NCBI RefSeq assembly: GCF_036373705.1 | Contig: NC_089851.1 | Span: 60,882,350 to 60,946,349 of the forward strand | Origin: Amia ocellicauda | Lineage: Eukaryota; Chordata; Actinopteri; Amiiformes; Amiidae | Direction of reading: 5' to 3' | Length of the DNA: 64,000 nt | Shown: piece after piece, positions 1 through 64,000 of the stretch | Position numbering within the stretch: the stretch's first letter is position 1 | Layout of the letters: every line of letters starts with the position of its first letter | Program-made: the position numbers and the translations under genes | The notes under the pieces: generated by a model | Told to the model about the DNA's origin: nothing | Databases searched by the model: none | What the model saw: the letters and a program-made list of their open reading frames with translations, nothing else

Positions 1-694
1 GGTGCTTGCCTTGCCGTCCATCCATCCATGTATCTATCTATCTATCTATCTATGACTCTCGATATCTAACTCTCTTGCTTGCTATCGCTCCCCCAATGGT
101 CAGTAGCATAGTAGCATAACAGCAGATCACGGACCACTGTCAATCAGGTGCTTGCCTTGCCGTCCATCCATCCATCCATCTATCTATCTATCTATCTATG
201 ACTCTCGATATCTAACTCTCTTGCTTGCTATCGCTCCCCCAATGGTCAGTAGCATAGTAGCATAACAGCAGATCACGGACCACTGTCAATCAGGTGCTTG
301 CCTTGCCGTCCATCCATCCATCCATCTATCTATCTATCTATCTATGACTCTCGATATCTAACTCTCTTGCTTGCTATCGCTCCCCCAATGGTCAGTAGCA
401 TAGTAGCATAACAGCAGATCACGGACCACTGTCAATCAGGTGCTTGCCTTGCCGTCCATCCATCCATCCATCTATCTATCTATCTATCTATGACTCTCGA
501 TATCTAACTCTCTTGCTTGCTATCGCTCCCCCAATGGTCAGTAGCATAGTAGCATAACAGCAGATCACGGACCACTGTCAATCAGGTGCTTGCCTTGCCG
601 TCCATCCATCCATCCATCTTTCTATCTATCTATCTATCTATCTATGACTCTCGATATCTAACTCGCTTGCTTGCTATCGCTCCCCCAATGGTCA
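1..694 (+). repeat. Leader minisatellite of U1 (at least five copies)
   Basis: Copies start at 1, 147, 293, 439 and 585, an exact 146-bp period. Each has a CCAT/CTAT tract, a GATATCTAACTC segment, a CCCCCAATGGTCA segment and a tail with AGCATAGTAGCATAACAG. The last copy is cut at CAATGGTCA, where gene-proximal DNA begins. Copy 1 is the CATGTATC class that elsewhere sits next to tRNA-Asn, copies 2-4 are the CATCTATC class, and copy 5 is the CATCTTTC class with AACTCGCTT in place of AACTCTCTT. No gene is seen in it. Confidence 0.95.
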
Positions 695-760
695 CGTATG
701 TTGCATTCAACGACAAAGAAAATCATGTGCTGGAAATGATTTCTGGCAACTGTGAAGGAA

Positions 761-774
761 CTGCACGACTGCAG
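761..774 (+). other. Hairpin 21 bp upstream of tRNA-Asn (U1 example)
   Basis: CTGCA and TGCAG form a perfect 5-bp stem around a 4-base loop. The stem is present in every unit at the same distance from the gene; the loop changes C to T in U10, U13, U15 and U19. It lies where Pol III would start or just upstream, so it could be 5' flank structure. No function is demonstrated. Confidence 0.5.
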
Positions 775-801
775 CAAACGCAACACCTCCGTCTGTCTCT
801 G

Positions 802-813
802 TGGCGCAATCGG
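802..813 (+). promoter_or_regulatory. A box of tRNA-Asn (internal Pol III promoter), U1
   Basis: TGGCGCAATCGG covers tRNA positions 8-19 and fits the A-box pattern. With the B box it is the site bound by TFIIIC in this gene class. It is altered in U13 and U19 (G12A) and U37 (C11T). Confidence 0.85.
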
Positions 814-846
814 TCAGCGCGTTCGGCTGTTAACCGAAAGGATGGT

Positions 847-857
847 GGTTCGAATCC
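847..857 (+). promoter_or_regulatory. B box of tRNA-Asn (internal Pol III promoter), U1
   Basis: GGTTCGAATCC covers positions 52-62 and matches the B-box consensus exactly. Variants elsewhere: C56T in U13 and U19, C62G in U49, U51, U53, U54, U55 and U57. Confidence 0.9.
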
Positions 858-874
858 ACCCAGGGACGGCCCAC

Positions 875-878
875 TTTT
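875..878 (+). terminator. Pol III terminator of tRNA-Asn, U1
   Basis: A TTTT run starts 7 nt after the discriminator base, the usual place and minimal length for a Pol III stop. It recurs at the same offset (tRNA start +80 to +83) in every unit except U36, where it is CTTT. Confidence 0.85.
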
Positions 879-975
879 CCCCCCGCCCCTTATTATTGTT
901 TCTACTTCTGGCGGTCAGTTTGCCAGACTGCGGCTACAGTAACCTTAAGCTGCTTGCTGCGGACGGCCATCTTGC

Positions 976-980
976 AAAAA
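976..980 (-). terminator. First TTTTT run downstream of tRNA-Thr, U1
   Basis: AAAAA on the + strand is a T5 run on the minus strand, about 52 nt past the tRNA-Thr 3' end. No run of four T lies nearer, so a Thr transcript would carry an unusually long trailer. The run is kept in all units. Confidence 0.6.
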
Positions 981-1032
981 CGTATCGAGGGTTTAGAAAC
1001 TTCCTTTCTATTGCCTAGGCCAACATAAACCA

Positions 1033-1106
1033 AGGCACTGCTGGGAGTCGAACCCAGGGTTTCCTATTTACAAGACAGGCGCTTTGACCGACTAAGCCAC
1101 GGTGTC
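1033..1106 (-). tRNA. tRNA-Thr-TGT: tRNA-Thr(UGU)-like gene, U1, anticodon stem intact
   Basis: It would decode ACA codons. The 74-nt fold has D stem GCTT/AAGC, anticodon stem CCTGT/ATAGG with loop CTTGTAA (anticodon TGT), variable loop AAACC, T stem CTGGG/CCCAG, T loop TTCGACT and discriminator T. The acceptor stem GACACCG/CAGTGCC has two A-C mismatches (2-71 and 6-67), unusual for a working tRNA. U1 alone has C at position 17. It faces tRNA-Asn. An (AAAAC)20 array starts 44 bp upstream of its 5' end. It may be functional or an early pseudogene. Confidence 0.82.
1044..1054 (-). promoter_or_regulatory. B box of tRNA-Thr, U1
   Basis: On the minus strand this reads GGTTCGACTCC, a full B-box match. 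The A box (TGGCTTAGTCGG, 1088-1099) is also recognisable, so the promoter elements survive better than the acceptor stem. Confidence 0.8.
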
Positions 1107-1150
1107 AGGACTCTCCCACTCCCCAGTACCTTCACCCAGGCGTAAGGAAC

Positions 1151-1250
1151 AAAACAAAACAAAACAAAACAAAACAAAACAAAACAAAACAAAACAAAAC
1201 AAAACAAAACAAAACAAAACAAAACAAAACAAAACAAAACAAAACAAAAC
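1151..1250. repeat. (AAAAC)20 pentanucleotide array, U1 example
   Basis: A pure array, read as (GTTTT)n on the minus strand, 44 bp upstream of tRNA-Thr. It recurs in every unit starting 45 nt past the Thr 5' end. Copy number ranges from 14 (U12) to 26 (U29, U34). Length is a whole multiple of five in all units but U9, U13, U14 and U19, which carry an interrupting short unit. U8 ends in AAAAT. It encodes only low-complexity frames and no gene. Confidence 0.97.
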
Positions 1251-1496
1251 AAAATCTGGATGCAGGCTGCAACAAAGGAAGCACACAGAGGTGAAAACGT
1301 AAGGTTGACGGGAGCAACAAGCTCCCTGTTGCGACTGTCCAGGGGCGGCAATGGGAATTGGACGTTGGCCGTTAGGTGCGCGTAGCGCGTGTCCTTTGGG
1401 TTCTGGTTCTTCTTTACAAACCGGCATCTGTCCAGTTGGCTTTCCGGTTCATTACGTCCTCTGATGGCTTTACGATAAGCCTATCTTGCAATCAGA
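1251..1496. other. Spacer block between (AAAAC)n and the next leader (U1 example)
   Basis: About 246 bp of conserved complex sequence, present in all units. It contains two overlapping hairpins (1310-1332) and a short inverted repeat GCGC-GTA-GCGC (1378-1388). I recognise no gene in it. Single-base variants in it mark related units, for example GACGTCGG in U12, U13, U17 and U19 and TTACGTGCTC in U50, U52 and U56. Confidence 0.8.
1310..1332 (+). other. Overlapping, mutually exclusive hairpins (U1 example)
   Basis: GGGAGC (1310-1315) pairs with GCTCCC (1321-1326) around AACAA. GCAACA (1314-1319) pairs with TGTTGC (1327-1332). The two 6-bp stems share bases, so only one can form at a time. Conserved in nearly all units; U6 has GCTCAC. 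Confidence 0.6.
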
Positions 1497-2042
1497 TGCT
1501 TGCCTTGCCGTCCATCCATCCATCTATCTATCTATCTATCTATCTATGACTCTCGATATCTAACTCTCTTGCTTGCTATCGCTCCCCCAATGGTCAGTAG
1601 CATAGTAGCATAACAGCAGATCACGGACCACTGTCAATCAGGTGCTTGCCTTGCCGTCCATCCATCCATCCATCTATCTATCTATCTATCTATGACTCTC
1701 GATATCTAACTCTCTTGCTTGCTATCGCTCCCCCAATGGTCAGTAGCATAGTAGCATAACAGCAGATCACGGACCACTGTCAATCAGGTGCTTGCCTTGC
1801 CGTCCATCCATCCATCCATCTTTCTATCTATCTATCTATCTATCTATGACTCTCGATATCTAACTCGCTTGCTTGCTATCGCTCCCCCAATGGTCAGTAG
1901 CATAGTAGCATAACAGCAGATCACGGACCACTGTCAATCAGGTGCTTGCCTTGCCGTCCATCCATCCATGTATCTATCTATCTATCTATCTATGACTCTC
2001 GATATCTAACTCTCTTGCTTGCTATCGCTCCCCCAATGGTCA
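1497..2042 (+). repeat. Leader minisatellite of U2, four classes in order
   Basis: This is the clearest four-copy leader: first copy after the spacer block (CATCTATC), a CATCCATCTATC copy, a CATCTTTC/AACTCGC copy, then the CATGTATC copy next to the gene. Three-copy leaders (U3, U4, U7) lack the second class. Most two-copy leaders keep only the first and the CATGTATC classes, so copies are lost from the middle. Confidence 0.9.
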
Positions 2043-10000: not shown

Positions 10001-11033
10001 AGGACTCTCCCACTCCCCAGTACCTTCACCCAGGCGTAAGGAACAAAACAAAACAAAACAAAACAAAACAAAACAAAACAAAACAAAACAAAACAAAACA
10101 AAACAAAACAAAACAAAACAAAACAAAACAAAACAAAACAAAACAAAATAAAATCTGGATGCAGGCTGCAACAAAGGAAGCACACAGAGGTGAAAACGTA
10201 AGGTTGACGGGAGCAACAAGCTCCCTGTTGCGACTGTCCAGGGGCGGCAATGGGAATTGTACGTTGGCCGTTAGGTGCGCGTAGCGCGTGTCCTTTGGGT
10301 TCTGGTTCTTCTTTACAAACCGGCATCTGTCCAGTTGGCTTTCCGGTTCATTACGTCCTCTGATGGCTTTACGATAAGCCTATCTTGCAATCAGATGCTT
10401 GCCTTGCCGTCCATCCATCCATCTATCTATCTATCTATGACTCTCGATATCTAACTCTCTTGCTTGCTATCGCTCCCCCAATGGTCAGTAGCATAGTAGC
10501 ATAACAGCAGATCACGGACCACTGTCAATCAGGTGCTTGCCTTGCCGTCCATCCATCCATCCATCTATCTATCTATCTATCTATGACTCTCGATATCTAA
10601 CTCTCTTGCTTGCTATCGCTCCCCCAATGGTCAGTAGCATAGTAGCATAACAGCAGATCACGGACCACTGTCAATCAGGTGCTTGCCTTGCCGTCCATCC
10701 ATCCATCCATCTTTCTATCTATCTATCTATCTATCTATGACTCTCGATATCTAACTCGCTTGCTTGCTATCGCTCCCCCATTGGTCAGTAGCATAGTAGC
10801 ATAACAGCAGATCACGGACCACTGTCAATCAGGTGCTTGCCTTGCCGTCCATCCATCCATGTATCTATCTATCTATCTATCTATGACTCTCGATATCTAA
10901 CTCTCTTGCTTGCTATCGCTCCCCCAATGGTCACGTATGTTGCATTCAACGACAAAGAAAATCGTGTGCTGGAAATGATTTCTGGCAACTGTGAAGGAAC
11001 TGCACGACTGCAGCAACCGCAACACCTCCGTCT

Positions 11034-11107
11034 GTCTCTGTGGCGCAATCGGTCAGCGCGTTCGGCTGTTAACCGAAAGGATGGTGGTTCGAATCCACCC
11101 AGGGACG
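11034..11107 (+). tRNA. tRNA-Asn-GTT: tRNA-Asn(GUU), U9
   Basis: Consensus body; four leader copies, the third with CCCCCATTGG. Confidence 0.95.
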
Positions 11108-11271
11108 GCCCACTTTTCCCCCCGCCCCTTGTTATTGTTTCTACTTCTGGCGGTCAGTTTGCCAGACTGCGGCTACAGTAACCTTAAGCTGCTTGCTGCG
11201 GACGGCCATCTTGCAAAAATGTATCGAGGGTTTAGAAACTTCCATTCCATTGCCTAGGCCAACATAAACCA

Positions 11272-11345
11272 AGGCACTGCTGGGAGTCGAACCCAAGGTT
11301 TTCTATTTACAAGACAGGCACTTTGACCAACTAAGCCACGGTGTC
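11272..11345 (-). tRNA. tRNA-Thr-TGT: tRNA-Thr(UGU)-like gene, U9
   Basis: A43, T25 and T49 as in U5-U8 but C6, a mosaic of neighbouring types. The 103-nt AAAAC array is interrupted by AAC. Confidence 0.72.
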
Positions 11346-12388
11346 AGGACTCTCCCACTCCCCAGTACCTTCACCCAGGCGTAAGGAACAAAACAAAACA
11401 ACAAAACAAAACAAAACAAAACAAAACAAAACAAAACAAAACAAAACAAAACAAAACAAAACAAAACAAAACAAAACAAAACAAAACAAAACAAAATCTG
11501 GATGCAGGCTGCAACAAAGGAAGCACACAGAGGTGAAAACGTAAGGTTGACGGGAGCAACAAGCTCCCTGTTGCGACTGTCCAGGGGCGGCAATGGGAAT
11601 TGGACGTTGGCCGTTAGGTGCGCGTAGCGCGTGTCCTTTGGGTTCTGGTTCTTCTTTACAAACCGGCATCTGTCCAGTTGGCTTTCCGGTTCATTACGTC
11701 CTCTGATGGCTTTACGATAAGCCTATCTTGCAATCAGATGCTTGCCTTGCCGTCCATCCATCCATCTATCTATCTATCTATCTATCTATCTATGACTCTC
11801 GATATCTAACTCTCTTGCTTGCTATCGCTCCCCCAATGGTCAGTAGCATAGTAGCATAACAGCAGATCACGGACCACTGTCAATCAGGTGCTTGCCTTGC
11901 CGTCCATCCATCCATCCATCTATCTATCTATCTATCTATGACTCTCGATATCTAACTCTCTTGCTTGCTATCGCTCCCCCAATGGTCAGTAGCATAGTAG
12001 CATAACAGCAGATCACGGACCACTGTCAATCAGGTGCTTGCCTTGCCGTCCATCCATCCATCCATCTTTCTATCTATCTATCTATCTATCTTTGACTCTC
12101 GATATCTAACTCGCTTGCTTGCTATCGCTCCCCCAATGGTCAGTAGCATTGTAGCATAACAGCAGATCACGGACCACTGTCAATCAGGTGCTTGCCTTGC
12201 CGTCCATCCATCTTTCTATCTATCTATCTATCTATCTATGACTCTCGATATCTAACTCGCTTGCTTGCTATCGCTCCCCCAATGGTCACGTATGTTGCAT
12301 TCAACGACAAAGAAAATCGTGTGCTGGAAATGATTTCTGGCAACTGTGAAGGAACTGCATGACTGCAGCAACCGCAACACCTCCCTCT

Positions 12389-12462
12389 GTCTCTGTGGCG
12401 CAATCGGTCAGCGCGTTCGGCTGTTAACCGAAAGAATGGTGGTTCGAATCCACCCAGGGACG
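12389..12462 (+). tRNA. tRNA-Asn-GTT: tRNA-Asn(GUU), U10, G46A
   Basis: Variable-loop G46A only. The last leader copy is the CATCTTTC class in place of CATGTATC. Four leader copies. Confidence 0.92.
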
Positions 12463-12626
12463 GCCCACTTTTCCCCCCGTCCCTTGTTATTGTTTCTACT
12501 TCTGGCGGTCAGTTTGCCAGACTGCGGCTACAGTAACCTTAAGCTGCTTGCTGCGGACGGCCATCTTGCAAAAATGTATCGAGGGTTTAGAAACTTCCTT
12601 TCCATTGCCTAGGCCAACATAAACCA

Positions 12627-12700
12627 AGGCACTGCTGGGAGTTGAACCCACGGTTTGCTATTTACAAGACAGGCGCTTTGACCAACTAAGCCACGGTGTC
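12627..12700 (-). tRNA. tRNA-Thr-TGT: tRNA-Thr(UGU)-like gene, U10
   Basis: C43 breaks pair 27-43, G49 faces G65, and the T loop has A57. (AAAAC)18 upstream. Confidence 0.68.
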
Positions 12701-13422
12701 AGGACTCTCCCACTCCCCAGTACCTTCACCCAGGCGTAAGGAACAAAACAAAACAAAACAAAACAAAACAAAACAAAACAAAACAAAACAAAACAAAACA
12801 AAACAAAACAAAACAAAACAAAACAAAACAAAACAAAATCTGGATGCAGGCTGCAACAAAGGAAGCACACAGAGGTGAAAACGTAAGGTTGACGGGAGCA
12901 ACAAGCTCCCTGTTGCGACTGTCCAGGGGCGGCAATGGGAATTGGACGTTGGCCGTTAGGTGCGCGTAGCGCGTGTCCTTTGGGTTCTGGTTCTTCTTTA
13001 CAAACCGGCATCTGTCCAGTTGGCTTTCCGGTTCATTACGTCCTCTGATGGCTTTACGATAAGCCTATCTTGCAATCAGATGCTTGCCTTGCCGTCCATC
13101 CATCTATCTATCTATCTATCTATCTATGACTCTCGATATCTAACTCTCTTGCTTGCTATCGCTCCCCCAATGGTCAGTAGCATAGTAGCATAACAGCAGA
13201 TCATGGACCACTGTCAATCAGGTGCTTGCCTTGCCGTCCATCCATCCATGTATCTATCTATCTATCTATCTATGACTCTCGATATCTAACTCTCTTGCTT
13301 GCTATCGCTCCCCCAATGGTCACGTATGTTGCATTCAACGACAAAGAAAATCGTGTGCTGGAAATGATTTCTGGCAACTGTGAAGGAACTGCACGACTGC
13401 AGCAACTGCAACACCTCCGTCT

Positions 13423-13496
13423 GTCTCTGTGGCGCAATCGGTCAGCGCGTTCGGCTGTTAACCGAAAGGATTGTGGTTCGAATCCACCCAGGGACG
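13423..13496 (+). tRNA. tRNA-Asn-GTT: tRNA-Asn(GUU), U11, G49T
   Basis: G49T faces C65, opening the first T-stem pair. First two-copy leader. Confidence 0.88.
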
Positions 13497-15469: not shown

Positions 15470-15502
<33 letters not shown>

Positions 15503-49911: not shown

Positions 49912-50642
49912 AGGACTCTCCCACTCCCCAGTACCTTCACCCAGGCGTAAGGAACAAAACAAAACAAAACAAAACAAAACAAAACAAAACAAAACAAAAC
50001 AAAACAAAACAAAACAAAACAAAACAAAACAAAACAAAACAAAACAAAACAAAATCTGGATGCAGGCTGCAACAAAGGAAGCACACAGAGGTGAAAACGT
50101 AAGGTTGACGGGAGCAACAAGCTCCCTGTTGCGACTGTCCAGGGGCGGCAATGGGAATTGGACGTTGGCCGTTAGGTGCGCGTAGCGCGTGTCCTTTGGG
50201 TTCTGGTTCTTCTTTACAAACCGGCATCTGTCCAGTTGGCTTTCCGGTTCATTACGTCCTCTGATGGCTTTACGATAAGCCTATCTTGCAATCAGATGCT
50301 TGCCTTGCCGTCCATCCATCCATCTATCTATCTATCTATCTATCTATGACTCTCGATATCTAACTCTCTTGCTTGCTATCGCTCCCCCAATGGTCAGTAG
50401 CATAGTAGCATAACAGCAGATCACGGACCACTGTCAATCAGGTGCTTGCCTTGCCGTCCATCCATCCATGTATCTATCTATCTATCTATCTATGACTCTC
50501 GATATCTAACTCTCTTGCTTGCTATCGCTCCCCCAATGGTCACGTATGTTGCATTCAACGACAAAGAAAATCGTGTGCTGGAAATGATTTCTGGCAACTG
50601 TGAAGGAACTGCACGACTGCAGCAACCGCAACACCTCCGTCT

Positions 50643-50716
50643 GTCTCTGTGGCGCAATCGGTCAGCGCGTTCGGCTGTTAACCGAAAGGATGGTGGTTCG
50701 AATCCACCCAGGGACG
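50643..50716 (+). tRNA. tRNA-Asn-GTT: tRNA-Asn(GUU), U45
   Basis: Consensus body; shares the one-base linker deletion with U43. Confidence 0.95.
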
Positions 50717-50879
50717 GCCCACTTTTCCCCCCGCCCCTTGTTATTGTTTCTACTTCTGGCGGTCAGTTTGCCAGACTGCGGCTACAGTAACCTTAAGCTG
50801 CTTGCTGCGGACGGCCATCTTGCAAAAATGTATCGAGGTTTAGAAACTTCCTTTCCATTGCCTAGGCCAACATAAACCA

Positions 50880-50953
50880 AGGCACTGCTGGGAGTCGAAC
50901 CCAGGGTTTGCTATTTACAAGACAGGCGCTTTGACCAACTAAGCCACGGTGTC
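50880..50953 (-). tRNA. tRNA-Thr-TGT: tRNA-Thr(UGU)-like gene, U45
   Basis: Right-hand type with CAGGTG flank; (AAAAC)25. Confidence 0.73.
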
Positions 50954-51714
50954 AGGACTCTCCCACTCCCCAGTACCTTCACCCAGGTGTAAGGAACAAA
51001 ACAAAACAAAACAAAACAAAACAAAACAAAACAAAACAAAACAAAACAAAACAAAACAAAACAAAACAAAACAAAACAAAACAAAACAAAACAAAACAAA
51101 ACAAAACAAAACAAAACAAAACAAAATCTGGATGCAGGCTGCAACAAAGGAAGCACACAGAGGTGAAAACGTAAGGTTGACGGGAGCAACAAGCTCCCTG
51201 TTGCGACTGTCCAGGGGCGGCAATGGGAATTGGACGTTGGCCGTTAGGTGCGCGTAGCGCGTGTCCTTTGGGTTCTGGTTCTTCTTTACAAACCGGCATC
51301 TGTCCAGTTGGCTTTCCGGTTCATTACGTCCTCTGATGGCTTTACGATAAGCCTATCTTGCAATCAGATGCTTGCCTTGCCGTCCATCCATCCATCTATC
51401 TATCTATCTATCTATCTATGACTCTCGATATCTAACTCTCTTGCTTGCTATCGCTCCCCCAATGGTCAGTAGCATAGTAGCATAACAGCAGATCACGGAC
51501 CACTGTCAATCAGGTGCTTGCCTTGCCGTCCATCCATCCATGTATCTATCTATCTATCTATCTATGACTCTCGATATCTAACTCTCTTGCTTGCTATCGC
51601 TCCCCCAATGGTCACGTATGTTGCATTCAACGACAAAGAAAATCGTGTGCTGGAAATGATTTCTGGCAACTGTGAAGGAACTGCACGACTGCAGCAACCG
51701 CAACACCTCCGTCT

Positions 51715-51788
51715 GTCTCTGTGGCGCAATCGGTCAGCGCGTTCGGCTGTTAACCGAAAGGATGGTGGTTCGAATCCACCCAGGGACG
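51715..51788 (+). tRNA. tRNA-Asn-GTT: tRNA-Asn(GUU), U46
   Basis: Consensus body; two leader copies. Confidence 0.95.
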
Positions 51789-51952
51789 GCCCACTTTTCC
51801 CCCCGCCCCTTGTTATTGTTTCTACTTCTGGCGGTCAGTTTGCCAGACTGCGGCTACAGTAACCTTAAGCTGCTTGCTGCGGACGGCCATCTTGCAAAAA
51901 TGTATCGAGGGTTTAGAAACTTCCTTTCCATTGCCTAGGCCAACATAAACCA

Positions 51953-52026
51953 AGGCACTGCTGGGAGTCGAACCCAGGGTTTGCTATTTACAAGACAGGC
52001 GCTTTGACCAACTAAGCCACGGTGTC
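51953..52026 (-). tRNA. tRNA-Thr-TGT: tRNA-Thr(UGU)-like gene, U46
   Basis: Right-hand type; private GTCAGGGCTC in the 5' flank; (AAAAC)20. Confidence 0.73.
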
Positions 52027-52758
52027 AGGGCTCTCCCACTCCCCAGTACCTTCACCCAGGCGTAAGGAACAAAACAAAACAAAACAAAACAAAACAAAAC
52101 AAAACAAAACAAAACAAAACAAAACAAAACAAAACAAAACAAAACAAAACAAAACAAAACAAAACAAAACAAAATCTGGATGCAGGCTGCAACAAAGGAA
52201 GCACACAGAGGTGAAAACGTAAGGTTGACGGGAGCAACAAGCTCCCTGTTGCGACTGTCCAGGGGCGGCAATGGGAATTGGACGTTGGCCGTTAGGTGCG
52301 CGTAGCGCGTGTCCTTTGGGTTCTGGTTCTTCTTTACAAACCGGCATCTGTCCAGTTGGCTTTCCGGTTCATTACGTCCTCTGATGGCTTTACGATAAGC
52401 CTATCTTGCAATCAGATGCTTGCCTTGCCGTCCATCCATCCATCTATCTATCTATCTATCTATGACTCTCGATATCTAACTCTCTTGCTTGCTATCGCTC
52501 CCCCAATGGTCAGTAGCATAGTAGCATAACAGCAGATCACGGACCACTGTCAATCAGGTGCTTGCCTTGCCGTCCATCCATCCATCCATCTATCTATCTA
52601 TCTATCTATGACTCTCGATATCTAACTCTCTTGCTTGCTATCGCTCCCCCAATGGTCACGTATGTTGCATTCAACGACAAAGAAAATCGTGTGCTGGAAA
52701 TGATTTCTGGCAACTGTGAAGGAACTGCACGACTGCAGCAACCGCAACACCTCCATCT

Positions 52759-52832
52759 GTCTCTGTGGCGCAATCGGTCAGCGCGTTCGGCTGTTAACCG
52801 AAAGGATGGTGGTTCGAATCCACCCAGGGACG
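52759..52832 (+). tRNA. tRNA-Asn-GTT: tRNA-Asn(GUU), U47
   Basis: Consensus body; CTCCATCTG just upstream. Gene-proximal leader copy is the CATCTATC class, as in U48, U52 and U56. Confidence 0.95.
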
Positions 52833-52996
52833 GCCCACTTTTCCCCCCGCCCCTTGTTATTGTTTCTACTTCTGGCGGTCAGTTTGCCAGACTGCGGCTA
52901 CAGTAACCTTAAGCTGCTTGCTGCGGACGGCCATCTTGCAAAAATGTATCGAGGGTTTAGAAACTTCCTTTCCATTGCCTAGGCCAACATAAACCA

Positions 52997-53070
52997 AGGC
53001 ACTGCTGGGAGTCGAACCCAGGGTTTGCTATTTACAAGACAGGCGCTTTGACCAACTAAGCCACGGTGTC
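52997..53070 (-). tRNA. tRNA-Thr-TGT: tRNA-Thr(UGU)-like gene, U47
   Basis: Right-hand type; (AAAAC)17 upstream. Confidence 0.73.
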
Positions 53071-53787
53071 AGGACTCTCCCACTCCCCAGTACCTTCACC
53101 CAGGCGTAAGGAACAAAACAAAACAAAACAAAACAAAACAAAACAAAACAAAACAAAACAAAACAAAACAAAACAAAACAAAACAAAACAAAACAAAACA
53201 AAATCTGGATGCAGGCTGCAACAAAGGAAGCACACAGAGGTGAAAACGTAAGGTTGACGGGAGCAACAAGCTCCCTGTTGCGACTGTCCAGGGGCGGCAA
53301 TGGGAATTGGACGTTGGCCGTTAGGTGCGCGTAGCGCGTGTCCTTTGGGTTCTGGTTCTTCTTTACAAACCGGCATCTGTCCAGTTGGCTTTCCGGTTCA
53401 TTACGTCCTCTGATGGCTTTACGATAAGCCTATCTTGCAATCAGATGCTTGCCTTGCCGTCCATCCATCCATCTATCTATCTATCTATCTATGACTCTCG
53501 ATATCTAACTCTCTTGCTTGCTATCGCTCCCCCAATGGTCAGTAGCATAGTAGCATAACAGCAGATCACGGACCACTGTCAATCAGGTGCTTGCCTTGCC
53601 GTCCATCCATCCATCCATCTATCTATCTATCTATCTATGACTCTCGATATCTAACTCTCTTGCTTGCTATCGCTCCCCCAATGGTCACGTATGTTGCATT
53701 CAACGACAAAGAAAATCGTGTGCTGGAAATGATTTCTGGCAACTGTGAAGGAACTGCACGACTGCAGCAACCGCAACACCTCCGTCT

Positions 53788-53861
53788 GTCTCTGTGGCGC
53801 AATCGGTCAGCGCGTTCGGCTGTTAACCGAAAGGATGGTGGTTCGAATCCACCCAGGGACG
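53788..53861 (+). tRNA. tRNA-Asn-GTT: tRNA-Asn(GUU), U48
   Basis: Consensus body; leader as in U47. Confidence 0.95.
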
Positions 53862-54025
53862 GCCCACTTTTCCCCCCGCCCCTTGTTATTGTTTCTACTT
53901 CTGGCGGTCAGTTTGCCAGACTGCGGCTACAGTAACCTTAAGCTGCTTGCTGCGGACGGCCATCTTGCAAAAATGTATCGAGGGTTTAGAAACTTCCTTT
54001 CCATTGCCTAGGCCAACATAAACCA

Positions 54026-54099
54026 AGGCACTGCTGGGAGTCGAACCCAGGGTTTGCTATTTACAAGACAGGCGCTTTGACCAACTAAGCCACGGTGTC
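54026..54099 (-). tRNA. tRNA-Thr-TGT: tRNA-Thr(UGU)-like gene, U48
   Basis: Right-hand type; (AAAAC)23 upstream. Confidence 0.73.
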
Positions 54100-54850
54100 A
54101 GGACTCTCCCACTCCCCAGTACCTTCACCCAGGCGTAAGGAACAAAACAAAACAAAACAAAACAAAACAAAACAAAACAAAACAAAACAAAACAAAACAA
54201 AACAAAACAAAACAAAACAAAACAAAACAAAACAAAACAAAACAAAACAAAACAAAACAAAATCTGGATGCAGGCTGCAACAAAGGAAGCACACAGAGGT
54301 GAAAACGTAAGGTTGACGGGAGCAACAAGCTCCCTGTTGCGACTGTCCAGGGGCGGCAATGGGAATTGGACGTTGGCCGTTAGGTGCGCGTAGCGCGTGT
54401 CCTTTGGGTTCTGGTTCTTCTTTACAAACCGGCATCTGTCCAGTTGGCTTTCCGGTTCATTACGTCCTCTGATGGCTTTACGATAAGCCTATCTTGCAAT
54501 CAGATGCTTGCCTTGCCGTCCATCCATCCATCTATCTATCTATCTATCTATCTATGACTCTCGATATCTAACTCTCTTGCTTGCTATCGCTCCCCCAATG
54601 GTCAGTAGCATAGTAGCATAACAGCAGATCACGGACCACTGTCAATCAGGTGCTTGCCTTGCCGTCCATCCATCCATGTATCTATCTATCTATCTATCTA
54701 TGACTCTCGATATCTAACTCTCTTGCTTGCTATCGCTCCCCCAATGGTCACGTATGTTGCATTCAACGACAAAGAAAATCGTGTGCTGGAAATGATTTCT
54801 GGCAACTGTGAAGGAACTGCACGACTGCAGCAACCGCAACACCTCCGTCT

Positions 54851-54924
54851 GTCTCTGTGGCGCAATCGGTCAGCGCGTTCGGCTGTTAACCGAAAGGATG
54901 GTGGTTCGAATCGACCCAGGGACG
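54851..54924 (+). tRNA. tRNA-Asn-GTT: tRNA-Asn(GUU), U49, C62G
   Basis: C62G faces G52, opening the T stem, and alters the last B-box base. First copy of this variant from the left. Confidence 0.87.
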
Positions 54925-55088
54925 GCCCACTTTTCCCCCCGCCCCTTGTTATTGTTTCTACTTCTGGCGGTCAGTTTGCCAGACTGCGGCTACAGTAACC
55001 TTAAGCTGCTTGCTGCGGACGGCCATCTTGCAAAAATGTATCGAGGGTTTAGAAACTTCCTTTCCATTGCCTAGGCCAACATAAACCA

Positions 55089-55162
55089 AGGCACTGCTGG
55101 GAGTCGAACCCAGGGTTTGCTATTTACAAGACAGGCGCTTTGACCAACTAAGCCACGGTGTC
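55089..55162 (-). tRNA. tRNA-Thr-TGT: tRNA-Thr(UGU)-like gene, U49
   Basis: Right-hand type; (AAAAC)20 upstream. Confidence 0.73.
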
Positions 55163-55552
55163 AGGACTCTCCCACTCCCCAGTACCTTCACCCAGGCGTA
55201 AGGAACAAAACAAAACAAAACAAAACAAAACAAAACAAAACAAAACAAAACAAAACAAAACAAAACAAAACAAAACAAAACAAAACAAAACAAAACAAAA
55301 CAAAACAAAATCTGGATGCAGGCTGCAACAAAGGAAGCACACAGAGGTGAAAACGTAAGGTTGACGGGAGCAACAAGCTCCCTGTTGCGACTGTCCAGGG
55401 GCGGCAATGGGAATTGGACGTTGGCCGTTAGGTGCGCGTAGCGCGTGTCCTTTGGGTTCTGGTTCTTCTTTACAAACCGGCATCTGTCCAGTTGGCTTTC
55501 CGGTTCATTACGTCCTCTGATGGCTTTACGATAAGCCTATCTTGCAATCAGA

Positions 55553-55648
55553 TGCTTGCCTTGCCGTCCATCCATCCATCTATCTATCTATCTATCTATG
55601 ACTCTCGATATCTAACTCTCTTGCTTGCTATCGCTCCCCCAATGGTCA
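55553..55648 (+). repeat. Single-copy leader of U50
   Basis: The only unit whose leader holds a single subrepeat copy: the first-class copy runs straight into the gene-proximal sequence at CAATGGTCA, giving the shortest unit spacing (898 bp). A 154-codon open frame (55432-55896) arises from this junction and is not a gene. Confidence 0.9.
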
Positions 55649-55748
55649 CGTATGTTGCATTCAACGACAAAGAAAATCGTGTGCTGGAAATGATTTCTGG
55701 CAACTGTGAAGGAACTGCACGACTGCAGCAACCGCAACACCTCCGTCT

Positions 55749-55822
55749 GTCTCTGTGGCGCAATCGGTCAGCGCGTTCGGCTGTTAACCGAAAGGATGGT
55801 GGTTCGAATCCACCCAGGGACG
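55749..55822 (+). tRNA. tRNA-Asn-GTT: tRNA-Asn(GUU), U50
   Basis: Consensus body with a single leader copy; linker CTTCAGGCGG. Confidence 0.95.
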
Positions 55823-55986
55823 GCCCACTTTTCCCCCCGCCCCTTGTTATTGTTTCTACTTCAGGCGGTCAGTTTGCCAGACTGCGGCTACAGTAACCTT
55901 AAGCTGCTTGCTGCGGACGGCCATCTTGCAAAAATGTATCGAGGGTTTAGAAACTTCCTTTCCATTGCCTAGGCCAACATAAACCA

Positions 55987-56060
55987 AGGCACTGCTGGGA
56001 GTCGAACCCAGGGTTTGCTATTTACAAGACAGGCGCTTTGACCAACTAAGCCACGGTGTC
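55987..56060 (-). tRNA. tRNA-Thr-TGT: tRNA-Thr(UGU)-like gene, U50
   Basis: Right-hand type; (AAAAC)20 upstream. Confidence 0.73.
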
Positions 56061-56796
56061 AGGACTCTCCCACTCCCCAGTACCTTCACCCAGGCGTAAG
56101 GAACAAAACAAAACAAAACAAAACAAAACAAAACAAAACAAAACAAAACAAAACAAAACAAAACAAAACAAAACAAAACAAAACAAAACAAAACAAAACA
56201 AAACAAAATCTGGATGCAGGCTGCAACAAAGGAAGCACACAGAGGTGAAAACGTAAGGTTGACGGGAGCAACAAGCTCCCTGTTGCGACTGTCCAGGGGC
56301 GGCAATGGGAATTGGACGTTGGCCGTTAGGTGCGCGTAGCGCGTGTCCTTTGGGTTCTGGTTCTTCTTTACAAACCGGCATCTGTCCAGTTGGCTTTCCG
56401 GTTCATTACGTGCTCTGATGGCTTTACGATAAGCCTATCTTGCAATCAGATGCTTGCCTTGCCGTCCATCCATCCATCTATCTATCTATCTATCTATCTA
56501 TGACTCTCGATATCTAACTCTCTTGCTTGCTATCGCTCCCCCAATGGTCAGTAGCATAGTAGCATAACAGCAGATCACGGACCACTGTCAATCAGGTGCT
56601 TGCCTTGCCGTCCATCCATCCATGTATCTATCTATCTATCTATCTATGACTCTCGATATCTAACTCTCTTGCTTGCTATCGCTCCCCCAATGGTCACGTA
56701 TGTTGCATTCAACGACAAAGAAAATCGTGTGCTGGAAATGATTTCTGGCAACTGTGAAGGAACTGCACGACTGCAGCAACCGCAACACCTCCGTCT

Positions 56797-56870
56797 GTCT
56801 CTGTGGCGCAATCGGTCAGCGCGTTCGGCTGTTAACCGAAAGGATGGTGGTTCGAATCGACCCAGGGACG
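56797..56870 (+). tRNA. tRNA-Asn-GTT: tRNA-Asn(GUU), U51, C62G
   Basis: T-stem mismatch 52-62 as in U49. Confidence 0.87.
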
Positions 56871-57034
56871 GCCCACTTTTCCCCCCGCCCCTTGTTATTG
56901 TTTCTACTTCTGGCGGTCAGTTTGCCAGACTGCGGCTACAGTAACCTTAAGCTGCTTGCTGCGGACGGCCATCTTGCAAAAATGTATCGAGGGTTTAGAA
57001 ACTTCCTTTCCATTGCCTAGGCCAACATAAACCA

Positions 57035-57108
57035 AGGCACTGCTGGGAGTCGAACCCAGGGTTTGCTATTTACAAGACAGGCGCTTTGACCAACTAAGCC
57101 ACGGTGTC
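57035..57108 (-). tRNA. tRNA-Thr-TGT: tRNA-Thr(UGU)-like gene, U51
   Basis: Right-hand type; (AAAAC)20 upstream. Confidence 0.73.
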
Positions 57109-57840
57109 AGGACTCTCCCACTCCCCAGTACCTTCACCCAGGCGTAAGGAACAAAACAAAACAAAACAAAACAAAACAAAACAAAACAAAACAAAACAAA
57201 ACAAAACAAAACAAAACAAAACAAAACAAAACAAAACAAAACAAAACAAAACAAAATCTGGATGCAGGCTGCAACAAAGGAAGCACACAGAGGTGAAAAC
57301 GTAAGGTTGACGGGAGCAACAAGCTCCCTGTTGCGACTGTCCAGGGGCGGCAATGGGAATTGGACGTTGGCCGTTAGGTGCGCGTAGCGCGTGTCCTTTG
57401 GGTTCTGGTTCTTCTTTACAAACCGGCATCTGTCCAGTTGGCTTTCCGGTTCATTACGTCCTCTGATGGCTTTACGATAAGCCTATCTTGCAATCAGATG
57501 CTTGCCTTGCCGTCCATCCATCCATCTATCTATCTATCTATCTATGACTCTCGATATCTAACTCTCTTGCTTGCTATCGCTCCCCCAATGGTCAGTAGCA
57601 TAGTAGCATAACAGCAGATCACGGACCACTGTCAATCAGGTGCTTGCCTTGCCGTCCATCCATCCATCCATCTATCTATCTATCTATCTATGACTCTCGA
57701 TATCTAACTCTCTTGCTTGCTATCGCTCCCCCAATGGTCACGTATGTTGCATTCAACGACAAAGAAAATCGTGTGCTGGAAATGATTTCTGGCAACTGTG
57801 AAGGAACTGCACGACTGCAGCAACCGCAACACCTCCGTCT

Positions 57841-57914
57841 GTCTCTGTGGCGCAATCGGTCAGCGCGTTCGGCTGTTAACCGAAAGGATGGTGGTTCGAA
57901 TCCACCCAGGGACG
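57841..57914 (+). tRNA. tRNA-Asn-GTT: tRNA-Asn(GUU), U52
   Basis: Consensus body, type 2 flanks. Confidence 0.95.
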
Positions 57915-58078
57915 GCCCACTTTTCCCCCCGCCCCTTGTTATTGTTTCTACTTCAGGCGGTCAGTTTGCCAGACTGCGGCTACAGTAACCTTAAGCTGCT
58001 TGCTGCGGACGGCCATCTTGCAAAAATGTATCGAGGGTTTAGAAACTTCCTTTCCATTGCCTAGGCCAACATAAACCA

Positions 58079-58152
58079 AGGCACTGCTGGGAGTCGAACC
58101 CAGGGTTTGCTATTTACAAGACAGGCGCTTTGACCAACTAAGCCACGGTGTC
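58079..58152 (-). tRNA. tRNA-Thr-TGT: tRNA-Thr(UGU)-like gene, U52
   Basis: Right-hand type; (AAAAC)19 upstream. Confidence 0.73.
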
Positions 58153-58883
58153 AGGACTCTCCCACTCCCCAGTACCTTCACCCAGGCGTAAGGAACAAAA
58201 CAAAACAAAACAAAACAAAACAAAACAAAACAAAACAAAACAAAACAAAACAAAACAAAACAAAACAAAACAAAACAAAACAAAACAAAACAAAATCTGG
58301 ATGCAGGCTGCAACAAAGGAAGCACACAGAGGTGAAAACGTAAGGTTGACGGGAGCAACAAGCTCCCTGTTGCGACTGTCCAGGGGCGGCAATGGGAATT
58401 GGACGTTGGCCGTTAGGTGCGCGTAGCGCGTGTCCTTTGGGTTCTGGTTCTTCTTTACAAACCGGCATCTGTCCAGTTGGCTTTCCGGTTCATTACGTGC
58501 TCTGATGGCTTTACGATAAGCCTATCTTGCAATCAGATGCTTGCCTTGCCGTCCATCCATCCATCTATCTATCTATCTATCTATCTATGACTCTCGATAT
58601 CTAACTCTCTTGCTTGCTATCGCTCCCCCAATGGTCAGTAGCATAGTAGCATAACAGCAGATCACGGACCACTGTCAATCAGGTGCTTGCCTTGCCGTCC
58701 ATCCATCCATGTATCTATCTATCTATCTATCTATGACTCTCGATATCTAACTCTCTTGCTTGCTATCGCTCCCCCAATGGTCACGTATGTTGCATTCAAC
58801 GACAAAGAAAATCGTGTGCTGGAAATGATTTCTGGCAACTGTGAAGGAACTGCACGACTGCAGCAACCGCAACACCTCCGTCT

Positions 58884-58957
58884 GTCTCTGTGGCGCAATC
58901 GGTCAGCGCGTTCGGCTGTTAACCGAAAGGATGGTGGTTCGAATCGACCCAGGGACG
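58884..58957 (+). tRNA. tRNA-Asn-GTT: tRNA-Asn(GUU), U53, C62G
   Basis: T-stem mismatch 52-62; first of three successive type 1 units. Confidence 0.87.
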
Positions 58958-59121
58958 GCCCACTTTTCCCCCCGCCCCTTGTTATTGTTTCTACTTCTGG
59001 CGGTCAGTTTGCCAGACTGCGGCTACAGTAACCTTAAGCTGCTTGCTGCGGACGGCCATCTTGCAAAAATGTATCGAGGGTTTAGAAACTTCCTTTCCAT
59101 TGCCTAGGCCAACATAAACCA

Positions 59122-59195
59122 AGGCACTGCTGGGAGTCGAACCCAGGGTTTGCTATTTACAAGACAGGCGCTTTGACCAACTAAGCCACGGTGTC
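59122..59195 (-). tRNA. tRNA-Thr-TGT: tRNA-Thr(UGU)-like gene, U53
   Basis: Right-hand type; (AAAAC)23 upstream. Confidence 0.73.
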
Positions 59196-59942
59196 AGGAC
59201 TCTCCCACTCCCCAGTACCTTCACCCAGGCGTAAGGAACAAAACAAAACAAAACAAAACAAAACAAAACAAAACAAAACAAAACAAAACAAAACAAAACA
59301 AAACAAAACAAAACAAAACAAAACAAAACAAAACAAAACAAAACAAAACAAAACAAAATCTGGATGCAGGCTGCAACAAAGGAAGCACACAGAGGTGAAA
59401 ACGTAAGGTTGACGGGAGCAACAAGCTCCCTGTTGCGACTGTCCAGGGGCGGCAATGGGAATTGGACGTTGGCCGTTAGGTGCGCGTAGCGCGTGTCCTT
59501 TGGGTTCTGGTTCTTCTTTACAAACCGGCATCTGTCCAGTTGGCTTTCCGGTTCATTACGTCCTCTGATGGCTTTACGATAAGCCTATCTTGCAATCAGA
59601 TGCTTGCCTTGCCGTCCATCCATCCATCTATCTATCTATCTATCTATGACTCTCGATATCTAACTCTCTTGCTTGCTATCGCTCCCCCAATGGTCAGTAG
59701 CATAGTAGCATAACAGCAGATCACGGACCACTGTCAATCAGGTGCTTGCCTTGCCGTCCATCCATCCATGTATCTATCTATCTATCTATCTATGACTCTC
59801 GATATCTAACTCTCTTGCTTGCTATCGCTCCCCCAATGGTCACGTATGTTGCATTCAACGACAAAGAAAATCGTGTGCTGGAAATGATTTCTGGCAACTG
59901 TGAAGGAACTGCACGACTGCAGCAACCGCAACACCTCCGTCT

Positions 59943-60016
59943 GTCTCTGTGGCGCAATCGGTCAGCGCGTTCGGCTGTTAACCGAAAGGATGGTGGTTCG
60001 AATCGACCCAGGGACG
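59943..60016 (+). tRNA. tRNA-Asn-GTT: tRNA-Asn(GUU), U54, C62G
   Basis: T-stem mismatch 52-62, otherwise consensus. Confidence 0.87.
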
Positions 60017-60180
60017 GCCCACTTTTCCCCCCGCCCCTTGTTATTGTTTCTACTTCTGGCGGTCAGTTTGCCAGACTGCGGCTACAGTAACCTTAAGCTG
60101 CTTGCTGCGGACGGCCATCTTGCAAAAATGTATCGAGGGTTTAGAAACTTCCTTTCCATTGCCTAGGCCAACATAAACCA

Positions 60181-60254
60181 AGGCACTGCTGGGAGTCGAA
60201 CCCAGGGTTTGCTATTTACAAGACAGGCGCTTTGACCAACTAAGCCACGGTGTC
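60181..60254 (-). tRNA. tRNA-Thr-TGT: tRNA-Thr(UGU)-like gene, U54
   Basis: Right-hand type; (AAAAC)21 upstream. Confidence 0.73.
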
Positions 60255-60987
60255 AGGACTCTCCCACTCCCCAGTACCTTCACCCAGGCGTAAGGAACAA
60301 AACAAAACAAAACAAAACAAAACAAAACAAAACAAAACAAAACAAAACAAAACAAAACAAAACAAAACAAAACAAAACAAAACAAAACAAAACAAAACAA
60401 AACAAAATCTGGATGCAGGCTGCAACAAAGGAAGCACACAGAGGTGAAAACGTAAGGTTGACGGGAGCAACAAGCTCCCTGTTGCGACTGTCCAGGGGCG
60501 GCAATGGGAATTGGACGTTGGCCGTTAGGTGCGCGTAGCGCGTGTCCTTTGGGTTCTGGTTCTTCTTTACAAACCGGCATCTGTCCAGTTGGCTTTCCGG
60601 TTCATTACGTCCTCTGATGGCTTTACGATAAGCCTATCTTGCAATCAGATGCTTGCCTTGCCGTCCATCCATCTATCTATCTATCTATCTATGACTCTCG
60701 ATATCTAACTCTCTTGCTTGCTATCGCTCCCCCAATGGTCAGTAGCATAGTAGCATAACAGCAGATCACGGACCACTGTCAATCAGGTGCTTGCCTTGCC
60801 GTCCATCCATCCATGTATCTATCTATCTATCTATCTATGACTCTCGATATCTAACTCTCTTGCTTGCTATCGCTCCCCCAATGGTCACGTATGTTGCATT
60901 CAACGACAAAGAAAATCGTGTGCTGGAAATGATTTCTGGCAACTGTGAAGGAACTGCACGACTGCAGCAACCGCAACACCTCCGTCT

Positions 60988-61061
60988 GTCTCTGTGGCGC
61001 AATCGGTCAGCGCGTTCGGCTGTTAACCGAAAGGATGGTGGTTCGAATCGACCCAGGGACG
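60988..61061 (+). tRNA. tRNA-Asn-GTT: tRNA-Asn(GUU), U55, C62G
   Basis: T-stem mismatch 52-62; the first leader copy lacks one CCAT. Confidence 0.87.
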
Positions 61062-61225
61062 GCCCACTTTTCCCCCCGCCCCTTGTTATTGTTTCTACTT
61101 CTGGCGGTCAGTTTGCCAGACTGCGGCTACAGTAACCTTAAGCTGCTTGCTGCGGACGGCCATCTTGCAAAAATGTATCGAGGGTTTAGAAACTTCCTTT
61201 CCATTGCCTAGGCCAACATAAACCA

Positions 61226-61299
61226 AGGCACTGCTGGGAGTCGAACCCAGGGTTTGCTATTTACAAGACAGGCGCTTTGACCAACTAAGCCACGGTGTC
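61226..61299 (-). tRNA. tRNA-Thr-TGT: tRNA-Thr(UGU)-like gene, U55
   Basis: Right-hand type; (AAAAC)19 upstream. Confidence 0.73.
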
Positions 61300-62026
61300 A
61301 GGACTCTCCCACTCCCCAGTACCTTCACCCAGGCGTAAGGAACAAAACAAAACAAAACAAAACAAAACAAAACAAAACAAAACAAAACAAAACAAAACAA
61401 AACAAAACAAAACAAAACAAAACAAAACAAAACAAAACAAAATCTGGATGCAGGCTGCAACAAAGGAAGCACACAGAGGTGAAAACGTAAGGTTGACGGG
61501 AGCAACAAGCTCCCTGTTGCGACTGTCCAGGGGCGGCAATGGGAATTGGACGTTGGCCGTTAGGTGCGCGTAGCGCGTGTCCTTTGGGTTCTGGTTCTTC
61601 TTTACAAACCGGCATCTGTCCAGTTGGCTTTCCGGTTCATTACGTCCTCTGATGGCTTTACGATAAGCCTATCTTGCAATCAGATGCTTGCCTTGCCGTC
61701 CATCCATCCATCTATCTATCTATCTATCTATGACTCTCGATATCTAACTCTCTTGCTTGCTATCGCTCCCCCAATGGTCAGTAGCATAGTAGCATAACAG
61801 CAGATCACGGACCACTGTCAATCAGGTGCTTGCCTTGCCGTCCATCCATCCATCCATCTATCTATCTATCTATCTATGACTCTCGATATCTAACTCTCTT
61901 GCTTGCTATCGCTCCCCCAATGGTCACGTATGTTGCATTCAACGACAAAGAAAATCGTGTGCTGGAAATGATTTCTGGCAACTGTGAAGGAACTGCACGA
62001 CTGCAGCAACCGCAACACCTCCGTCT

Positions 62027-62100
62027 GTCTCTGTGGCGCAATCGGTCAGCGCGTTCGGCTGTTAACCGAAAGGATGGTGGTTCGAATCCACCCAGGGACG
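62027..62100 (+). tRNA. tRNA-Asn-GTT: tRNA-Asn(GUU), U56
   Basis: Consensus body, type 2 flanks. Confidence 0.95.
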
Positions 62101-62264
62101 GCCCACTTTTCCCCCCGCCCCTTGTTATTGTTTCTACTTCAGGCGGTCAGTTTGCCAGACTGCGGCTACAGTAACCTTAAGCTGCTTGCTGCGGACGGCC
62201 ATCTTGCAAAAATGTATCGAGGGTTTAGAAACTTCCTTTCCATTGCCTAGGCCAACATAAACCA

Positions 62265-62338
62265 AGGCACTGCTGGGAGTCGAACCCAGGGTTTGCTATT
62301 TACAAGACAGGCGCTTTGACCAACTAAGCCACGGTGTC
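62265..62338 (-). tRNA. tRNA-Thr-TGT: tRNA-Thr(UGU)-like gene, U56
   Basis: Right-hand type; (AAAAC)19 upstream. Confidence 0.73.
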
Positions 62339-63069
62339 AGGACTCTCCCACTCCCCAGTACCTTCACCCAGGCGTAAGGAACAAAACAAAACAAAACAAA
62401 ACAAAACAAAACAAAACAAAACAAAACAAAACAAAACAAAACAAAACAAAACAAAACAAAACAAAACAAAACAAAACAAAATCTGGATGCAGGCTGCAAC
62501 AAAGGAAGCACACAGAGGTGAAAACGTAAGGTTGACGGGAGCAACAAGCTCCCTGTTGCGACTGTCCAGGGGCGGCAATGGGAATTGGACGTTGGCCGTT
62601 AGGTGCGCGTAGCGCGTGTCCTTTGGGTTCTGGTTCTTCTTTACAAACCGGCATCTGTCCAGTTGGCTTTCCGGTTCATTACGTGCTCTGATGGCTTTAC
62701 GATAAGCCTATCTTGCAATCAGATGCTTGCCTTGCCGTCCATCCATCCATCTATCTATCTATCTATCTATCTATGACTCTCGATATCTAACTCTCTTGCT
62801 TGCTATCGCTCCCCCAATGGTCAGTAGCATAGTAGCATAACAGCAGATCACGGACCACTGTCAATCAGGTGCTTGCCTTGCCGTCCATCCATCCATGTAT
62901 CTATCTATCTATCTATCTATGACTCTCGATATCTAACTCTCTTGCTTGCTATCGCTCCCCCAATGGTCACGTATGTTGCATTCAACGACAAAGAAAATCG
63001 TGTGCTGGAAATGATTTCTGGCAACTGTGAAGGAACTGCACGACTGCAGCAACCGCAACACCTCCGTCT

Positions 63070-63143
63070 GTCTCTGTGGCGCAATCGGTCAGCGCGTTCG
63101 GCTGTTAACCGAAAGGATGGTGGTTCGAATCGACCCAGGGACG
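63070..63143 (+). tRNA. tRNA-Asn-GTT: tRNA-Asn(GUU), U57, C62G
   Basis: T-stem mismatch 52-62; last complete tRNA-Asn of the window. Confidence 0.87.
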
Positions 63144-63307
63144 GCCCACTTTTCCCCCCGCCCCTTGTTATTGTTTCTACTTCTGGCGGTCAGTTTGCCA
63201 GACTGCGGCTACAGTAACCTTAAGCTGCTTGCTGCGGACGGCCATCTTGCAAAAATGTATCGAGGGTTTAGAAACTTCCTTTCCATTGCCTAGGCCAACA
63301 TAAACCA

Positions 63308-63381
63308 AGGCACTGCTGGGAGTCGAACCCAGGGTTTGCTATTTACAAGACAGGCGCTTTGACCAACTAAGCCACGGTGTC
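63308..63381 (-). tRNA. tRNA-Thr-TGT: tRNA-Thr(UGU)-like gene, U57
   Basis: Right-hand type; (AAAAC)22 upstream. Confidence 0.73.
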
Positions 63382-63781
63382 AGGACTCTCCCACTCCCCA
63401 GTACCTTCACCCAGGCGTAAGGAACAAAACAAAACAAAACAAAACAAAACAAAACAAAACAAAACAAAACAAAACAAAACAAAACAAAACAAAACAAAAC
63501 AAAACAAAACAAAACAAAACAAAACAAAACAAAACAAAATCTGGATGCAGGCTGCAACAAAGGAAGCACACAGAGGTGAAAACGTAAGGTTGACGGGAGC
63601 AACAAGCTCCCTGTTGCGACTGTCCAGGGGCGGCAATGGGAATTGGACGTTGGCCGTTAGGTGCGCGTAGCGCGTGTCCTTTGGGTTCTGGTTCTTCTTT
63701 ACAAACCGGCATCTGTCCAGTTGGCTTTCCGGTTCATTACGTCCTCTGATGGCTTTACGATAAGCCTATCTTGCAATCAGA

Positions 63782-64000
63782 TGCTTGCCTTGCCGTCCAT
63801 CCATCCATCTATCTATCTATCTATCTATCTATGACTCTCGATATCTAACTCTCTTGCTTGCTATCGCTCCCCCAATGGTCAGTAGCATAGTAGCATAACA
63901 GCAGATCACGGACCACTGTCAATCAGGTGCTTGCCTTGCCGTCCATCCATCCATGTATCTATCTATCTATCTATCTATGACTCTCGATATCTAACTCTCT
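63782..64000 (+). repeat. Start of unit U58 (leader only, cut by window end)
   Basis: One first-class leader copy and most of a CATGTATC copy. Its tRNA genes would lie beyond the window, so the array does not end here. Confidence 0.95.

Follow-up and report, generated by a model that had tools for sequence, protein, structure and literature searches.

What could a genome gain from, or merely tolerate in, a stretch of DNA in which the same two transfer RNA (tRNA) genes are repeated over and over? The 64-kb stretch of Amia ocellicauda DNA analysed here (the window; C2:60,882,350-60,946,349 in a genome of 988 Mb and 385 contigs) is filled by 57 convergent tRNA-Asn(GTT)/tRNA-Thr(TGT) pairs and belongs to a longer tandem array. 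In most of the Asn genes the cloverleaf is complete and promoter boxes and a nearby T4 run are present, and the Thr gene is mispaired in every array copy examined. Judged from sequence, the array may be a bulk store of tRNA-Asn genes, kept alike by homogenisation, in which the Thr genes are passengers. We prefer this reading to that of a passive satellite and hold it at about even confidence.

The gene content of the window was established with two programs. ARAGORN called 114 tRNAs, with Asn(GTT) on the plus strand and Thr(TGT) on the minus strand in strict alternation, tail to tail. The Rfam family RF00005 recovered the same 114 above its gathering score (60.5-72 bits for Asn and 44.4-57.9 bits for Thr), and no other Rfam family reached the gathering score in the window search. 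As a control for these calls, ten Markov-1 random 64-kb sequences yielded 0 tRNAs each. The earlier note on this DNA, which had counted at least 57 complete head-to-tail pairs in 64 kb, is thus borne out (57 Asn and 57 Thr). A mascRNA-like Rfam match on the Thr strand, found in the first 5,000 bases, was rejected (25.8 bits against a gathering score of 42.5 bits; it overlaps a tRNA). No hidden protein genes were seen in the window, where the longest stop-to-stop frame is 154 amino acids and those that follow in length closely resemble one another.

When 250 kb of C2 around the window was examined, the whole array was found to span about 200 kb (about 60.770-60.970 Mb), of which the window is the right-hand part. 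At the left edge the array is preceded by a run of pure leader minisatellite no shorter than 3.4 kb (60,766,941-60,770,400), and at the right edge stands a divergent last Asn gene at 60,970,442. Beyond it, in the right flank, lies a frame of 346 amino acids for a Tc1-type transposase (L026 1500-2540, minus strand). The whole array contains 150 Asn-type genes, all on the plus strand (147 GTT, 2 GTA and 1 ATT). ARAGORN called 149 Thr(TGT) genes on the minus strand, one of them in the left flank at 60,765,334, which leaves 148 within the array; a sequence search found 146 Thr genes of the array. The Asn-type genes with changed anticodons lie at C2:60830748, 60831936 and 60868445, and ARAGORN calls the first two Tyr. 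The earlier description of both ends as open is correct for the window and not for the array. Likewise, the statement that nothing else is present holds within the window and fails for the whole array, in which two retroelement-bearing interruptions occur.

The two genes of the pair are in very different condition. In the window, 37 of 57 Asn genes equal the consensus and 44 are fully paired. Across the array, 94/150 equal the consensus, 127/150 are fully paired, and 118/150 combine full pairing with the GTT anticodon and a matching B box. A T4 run lies 6 nt downstream of the Asn gene in 56 of the 57 window units. In the case of Thr, a fully paired cloverleaf was found in none of the 57 window copies and in none of the 151 matched rows of the fetched region (among these rows are the flanking Thr gene, an adjacent Ala gene and a small number of poor alignments). 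The A2:C72 mispair is present in 144 of the 146 Thr rows obtained by sequence search of the array. Position 28:44 is mispaired in 76/151 fetched-region rows versus 53/57 in the window, so this pair is mostly intact in the left part of the array. The first T run for Thr (T5) lies 51-52 nt beyond the gene on the minus strand. A working Asn/Thr pair is not supported, as every Thr copy examined is mispaired.

The B-box pattern is kept in 49/57 Asn and 55/57 Thr genes of the window despite the mispairing of all Thr cloverleaves. This is what would be seen if the array were a chromatin boundary or TFIIIC platform, in which dense A and B boxes would act as an insulator and the boxes would matter but the cloverleaf would not. 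Barrier activity has been found for part of a mouse tRNA repeat (PMC4041453). However, B-box changes occur among the units, and we regard a boundary role as improbable.

The share of the genome's tRNA-Asn genes held by the array was counted by motif, and Asn genes that differ from the motifs are left out of the count. The first 51 bases of the Asn gene have 110 exact matches in the genome, 107 in the array and three elsewhere on C2. The Asn anticodon plus T-arm motif has 255 genome matches, of which 115 lie in the array. Among the remaining matches, the 100 listed are at C2 51.15-58.64 Mb (the listing covers 100 places, is apparently ordered by contig and begins on C2), and 40 were not placed. 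A T20-type Asn motif has one genome match, on C7, with a non-matching B box. The suggestion that the array could supply tRNA-Asn dosage is plausible, because it holds 115/255 of the genome's matches to the anticodon-plus-T-arm motif.

As a rule, few short sequences in a genome are as constrained as tRNA genes. The bodies of functional human tRNA genes vary an order of magnitude less than background (PMC8113476). Variation across the whole array was counted in 148 of the 150 Asn-type units (one was not extracted and one divergent edge unit was excluded). Variable sites made up 29/74 of the Asn gene and 76/310 of the adjacent flanks, a ratio of 1.6 (95 % confidence interval 1.0-2.48); outside CpG the ratio was 1.49 (0.83-2.57). 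Thr had 21 variable sites of 74 and a ratio to the flanks of 1.16 (0.68-1.9), an interval with which a modest deficit of variation in Thr is compatible and thus not excluded. Of the variable Asn positions, 17 of 29 belong to stems, against an expectation of 16.5. Neither tRNA gene is detectably less variable than its flanks in the 148 units, and therefore no purifying selection at the level of the copy was found.

In the window alone, the comparison with adjacent flanks gave 12/74 versus 31/310 (ratio 1.62; 0.76-3.25). Against all non-tRNA unique sequence of the window the counts were 12/74 versus 41/550 (nominal p 0.023). This excess stems from units 20-57 (8/74 versus 14/550, p 0.002), and units 1-19 show none (5/74 versus 28/550, p 0.58). 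The distal segment is less variable, with an Asn/distal ratio of 2.19 (1.32-3.58) in the whole array. This last excess would fit transcription-tied mutation, and other explanations exist, CpG content among them. The proposal of faster mutation in tRNA bodies than in their flanks was dropped in view of the intervals for the window, for the whole array and for sites outside CpG. An excess of Asn variation over the adjacent flanks is suggested, and only the lack of a clear variation deficit in the tRNA bodies is firm.

This lack, together with the mispairing of every Thr copy examined, favours a passive satellite, in which the unit would spread by unequal exchange alone, the tRNA genes would be hitch-hikers, the array would be mostly silent and tRNA-Asn would come from other loci. 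A precedent for silence is the Arabidopsis Ser/Tyr tandem cluster, which is silent in most tissues (PMC12308677). On the other side, most Asn copies of the array are still fully paired, and the array accounts for its 115 of 255 Asn-motif matches. We judge the passive satellite to be a substantial possibility, though clearly less than even. Several points weigh against the bulk store that we prefer. The absence of copy-level constraint suits a passive satellite equally well, and three Asn-type copies carry other anticodons (GTA twice, ATT once). With 40/255 Asn-motif matches unplaced and motif-divergent Asn genes uncounted, a separate working Asn set is conceivable.

The way in which the units relate to one another indicates how the array changes. 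Window units share a mean identity of 99.35 % over 698 unique columns, in which the mean number of pairwise differences is 8.1 for units 1-19 and 2.1 for units 20-57. A block of five units is duplicated (units 9-13 again as 14-17 and 19, with 0-2 differences per 698 columns). The two array interruptions, 55 kb apart, are parts of one exact repeat of 9,158 bp with an offset of 54,964 bp. Block duplications are what unequal exchange gives, and the array grows by unequal exchange. The earlier view of a satellite-like array that includes tRNA genes is therefore supported. Head-to-tail repetition of a tRNA-bearing unit and concerted evolution of the units, by which a tandem tRNA gene array is recognised, were both found. 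The 9,158-bp stretch bears a Pao-type element with a long open frame (L012 5832-9998, and again 54,964 bp rightward). One piece of this frame exceeds the Pfam cut-off for the Pao retrotransposon peptidase and falls below it for reverse transcriptase, and another piece has no Pfam match. Interruptions carrying a retroelement are a further point in favour of the passive satellite. In the case of the tRNA unit itself, an origin as a short interspersed element (SINE) or retroposon was rejected: no target-site duplication was found, and the longest word common to the flanks is 6 nt, a length reached in 37 % of 1000 shuffles.

Could the array be an assembly artefact, a repeat falsely expanded or collapsed? 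The 2,500 N directly left of the window and the high identity of the units would allow it. However, some variants are shared among units and others are private, blocks of units are duplicated, a gradient runs along the array, and related arrays with their own differences lie on the same contig. We consider an artefact very improbable. The concern, raised in the earlier note, is weakened and not removed by the array edges, the shared variants, the multi-unit duplications and the related arrays, and the exact copy number of the array is not secure.

The related loci were found by motif and by alignment. A 28-place Thr motif has 612 genome matches, 131 of them within the fetched 250 kb, and the first 100 matches listed all lie on C2 at 51.06-53.55 Mb. 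Other C2 loci and arrays carry the same convergent module, with CGT, TGT or AGT as the Thr anticodon, and the claim of a unique arrangement is not upheld. Shorter pieces apart, the related units align with the consensus over roughly 480-830 bases, at an identity of about 80-97 %. At 51.4 Mb (L030, L036 and L038), all five distinct Asn copies have one mispair and lack a matching B box. Of the eight distinct Thr(CGT) genes there, seven show a single mispair together with a matching B box and one shows two mispairs and no matching box; two had no matched Asn partner. At 53.5 Mb, 5/5 Asn copies are fully paired and carry a pair-keeping double change (C:G to T:A) in the anticodon stem, and the Thr genes (5/5 TGT and 5/5 AGT) have one mispair each. 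Near 51.06 Mb the two Asn copies are broken and the TGT genes have 0 and 1 mispair. Full pairing of both genes, Asn and Thr(AGT), is seen at 52.80 and 55.17 Mb. The related array at C2 53.53-53.55 Mb (L037 and L039) has Thr-AGT, Thr-TGT and Asn in each unit. At another locus (L028) a convergent Asn/Thr pair adjoins tRNA-Pro(agg) and tRNA-Leu(cag), and this cluster is possibly near the ancestral one.

These loci bear on the choice between store and satellite in both directions. When seven copies were aligned with the consensus, the differences came to 2.7-10.8 % in Asn and 3.0-8.3 % in the spacer, so that no clear gene conservation between arrays was seen in this set, as a passive satellite would have it. 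A contrary contrast is given by the 53.5-Mb versus 51.07-Mb copies, in which Thr differs by 1.4 % and spacer by 5.1 %. The pair-keeping double change in all five 53.5-Mb Asn copies seen speaks against a passive satellite. A bolder extension of the bulk store, which we find doubtful, is that one arm took over most of the tRNA-Asn supply through rival, reciprocally decaying Asn/Thr arrays under selection on their collective output. The present array would have kept Asn and lost Thr, in the 51.4-Mb array Asn would be the broken gene and Thr, with anticodon CGT, the better one, and at 53.5 Mb Asn would persist through its compensatory stem change. Selection would then act on arrays: genes would change as fast as spacer, yet supply would persist through homogenisation.

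The 57 unit anchors of the window define 56 complete periods of 898-1378 bp. Each unit opens with 105 bp of 5' flank and the Asn gene, which a spacer of 164 bp separates from the Thr gene. After a further 41 bp come the (AACAA)n block and the distal unique segment, and then the leader, in which a 146-bp minisatellite is present in 1-4 copies (2 copies in 43/57 units). The minisatellite leader and the pentanucleotide array noted earlier are both confirmed. Feature coordinates are given in Table 1.

Table 1 Features of the window (positions within the 64,000-nt stretch)
Feature	Position	Strand	Remarks
Part of tandem array, 57 pairs	1..64000		Array extends beyond both ends of the window, to about 60.770 and 60.970 Mb of C2
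Leader minisatellite before first complete unit	1..689	+	146-bp period; 2,500 N directly to the left
First tRNA-Asn(GTT), one of 57	795..868	+	Consensus: 21/21 stem pairs, A and B boxes
Inter-gene spacer, 164 bp	869..1032		Holds the T runs downstream of Asn and Thr
First tRNA-Thr(TGT), one of 57	1033..1106	-	Tail to tail with Asn; stems mispaired
(AACAA)n block	1148..1254	+	Length differs among units
Distal unique segment	1255..1490		Variability below that of the gene block
Leader minisatellite of first unit	1489..2042	+	146-bp period with ATCC/ATCT runs
Units 9-19	10929..24070	+	Units 9-13 repeated as 14-17 and 19, 0-2 differences in 698 columns
Units 20-57, more homogenised	24071..64000	+	Mean 2.1 pairwise differences in 698 columns
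Units 49-57	54746..64000	+	Two interspersed variant types (columns 168 and 220/774)

Tandem tRNA arrays are already known, and what is new among them is the unit, a convergent Asn/Thr pair of which one partner is broken. No convergent Asn/Thr tandem unit is described in the literature titles and abstract beginnings covered, which leave subscription journals mostly outside, and the passages available from papers on tuatara, Helenus/Ajax and plant tandem duplications hold no such unit. Searches of collections of viral contigs and genome contigs gave 0 matches. Phage (two) and plasmid (one) collections gave short matches over the Asn gene with 79.7-82.1 % identity; two of the three are annotated as tRNA-Asn and one is without annotation.

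The tandem tRNA genes of Xenopus oocytes form a multi-gene unit. They are activated at zygotic genome activation (PMC11500080). The present array resembles them as a set of tandemly arrayed tRNA genes; expression is known in Xenopus, whereas the array here is known from sequence alone. The Arabidopsis Ser/Tyr cluster, from a plant, is likewise a redundant tRNA unit in tandem repetition, and it is reactivated in root cap cells (PMC12308677). In Entamoeba almost all tRNA genes lie in 25 array types with units of up to five genes (PMC2652664). As here, those tandem units are accompanied by short tandem repeats, and concerted evolution has been proposed for them (PMC2652664). Entamoeba is a protist with nearly all of its tRNA genes arrayed, whereas here one convergent pair is arrayed in a 988-Mb genome. 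The human tRNA variable-number tandem repeat at 1q23.3 has a 7.3-kb unit with five tRNA genes, 98 % identity and 9-43 units per allele (PMC4041453). It shares with our array the tandem units, the tRNA genes on both strands and the simple repeats, and differs in that the units here are mostly 1.0-1.4 kb and number about 150, each with one pair of which one partner is broken.

The zebrafish chr-4q is a tRNA-rich heterochromatic long arm with 10,396 of 22,275 tRNAs (PMC3392230). The listed Asn and Thr motif matches, from listings of up to 100 places each, crowd C2 at 51-61 Mb in what may be a similar manner. Adjacent Danio tRNA pairs are nearly all parallel (PMC2888827), whereas the pair here is convergent. 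U1 is enriched on chr-4q; here the 42 U1 matches scored out of 13,294 candidates lie on C8 and C11, none of them on C2. Tandem arrays of U1 small nuclear RNA genes were observed at C8:22.86-23.24 Mb (about 6.4 kb spacing in part) and C11:25.53-25.57 Mb (1.03 kb).

In the reading that we prefer, one copy of the convergent Asn/Thr module, which is present at many places in 51-61 Mb of C2, may have been amplified together with the leader minisatellite and the pentanucleotide block by unequal exchange into a macrosatellite array. Many Asn copies would be transcribable by RNA polymerase III, and the array would serve as a reservoir in which no single copy matters, with the Thr copies carried along as passengers. 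The reservoir may be drawn on chiefly when demand is very high (oocyte, early embryo), as in the case of the Xenopus tandem genes, and be silent otherwise. Genes that account for nearly half of the matches to a tRNA-Asn motif, lie in a single array and vary at least as much as their flanks let one ask whether selection acts on arrays and not on gene copies, and they open the question of whether such arrays are expressed. The occurrence of Thr AGT, TGT and CGT anticodons in one module also provides a case for studying isoacceptor turnover.

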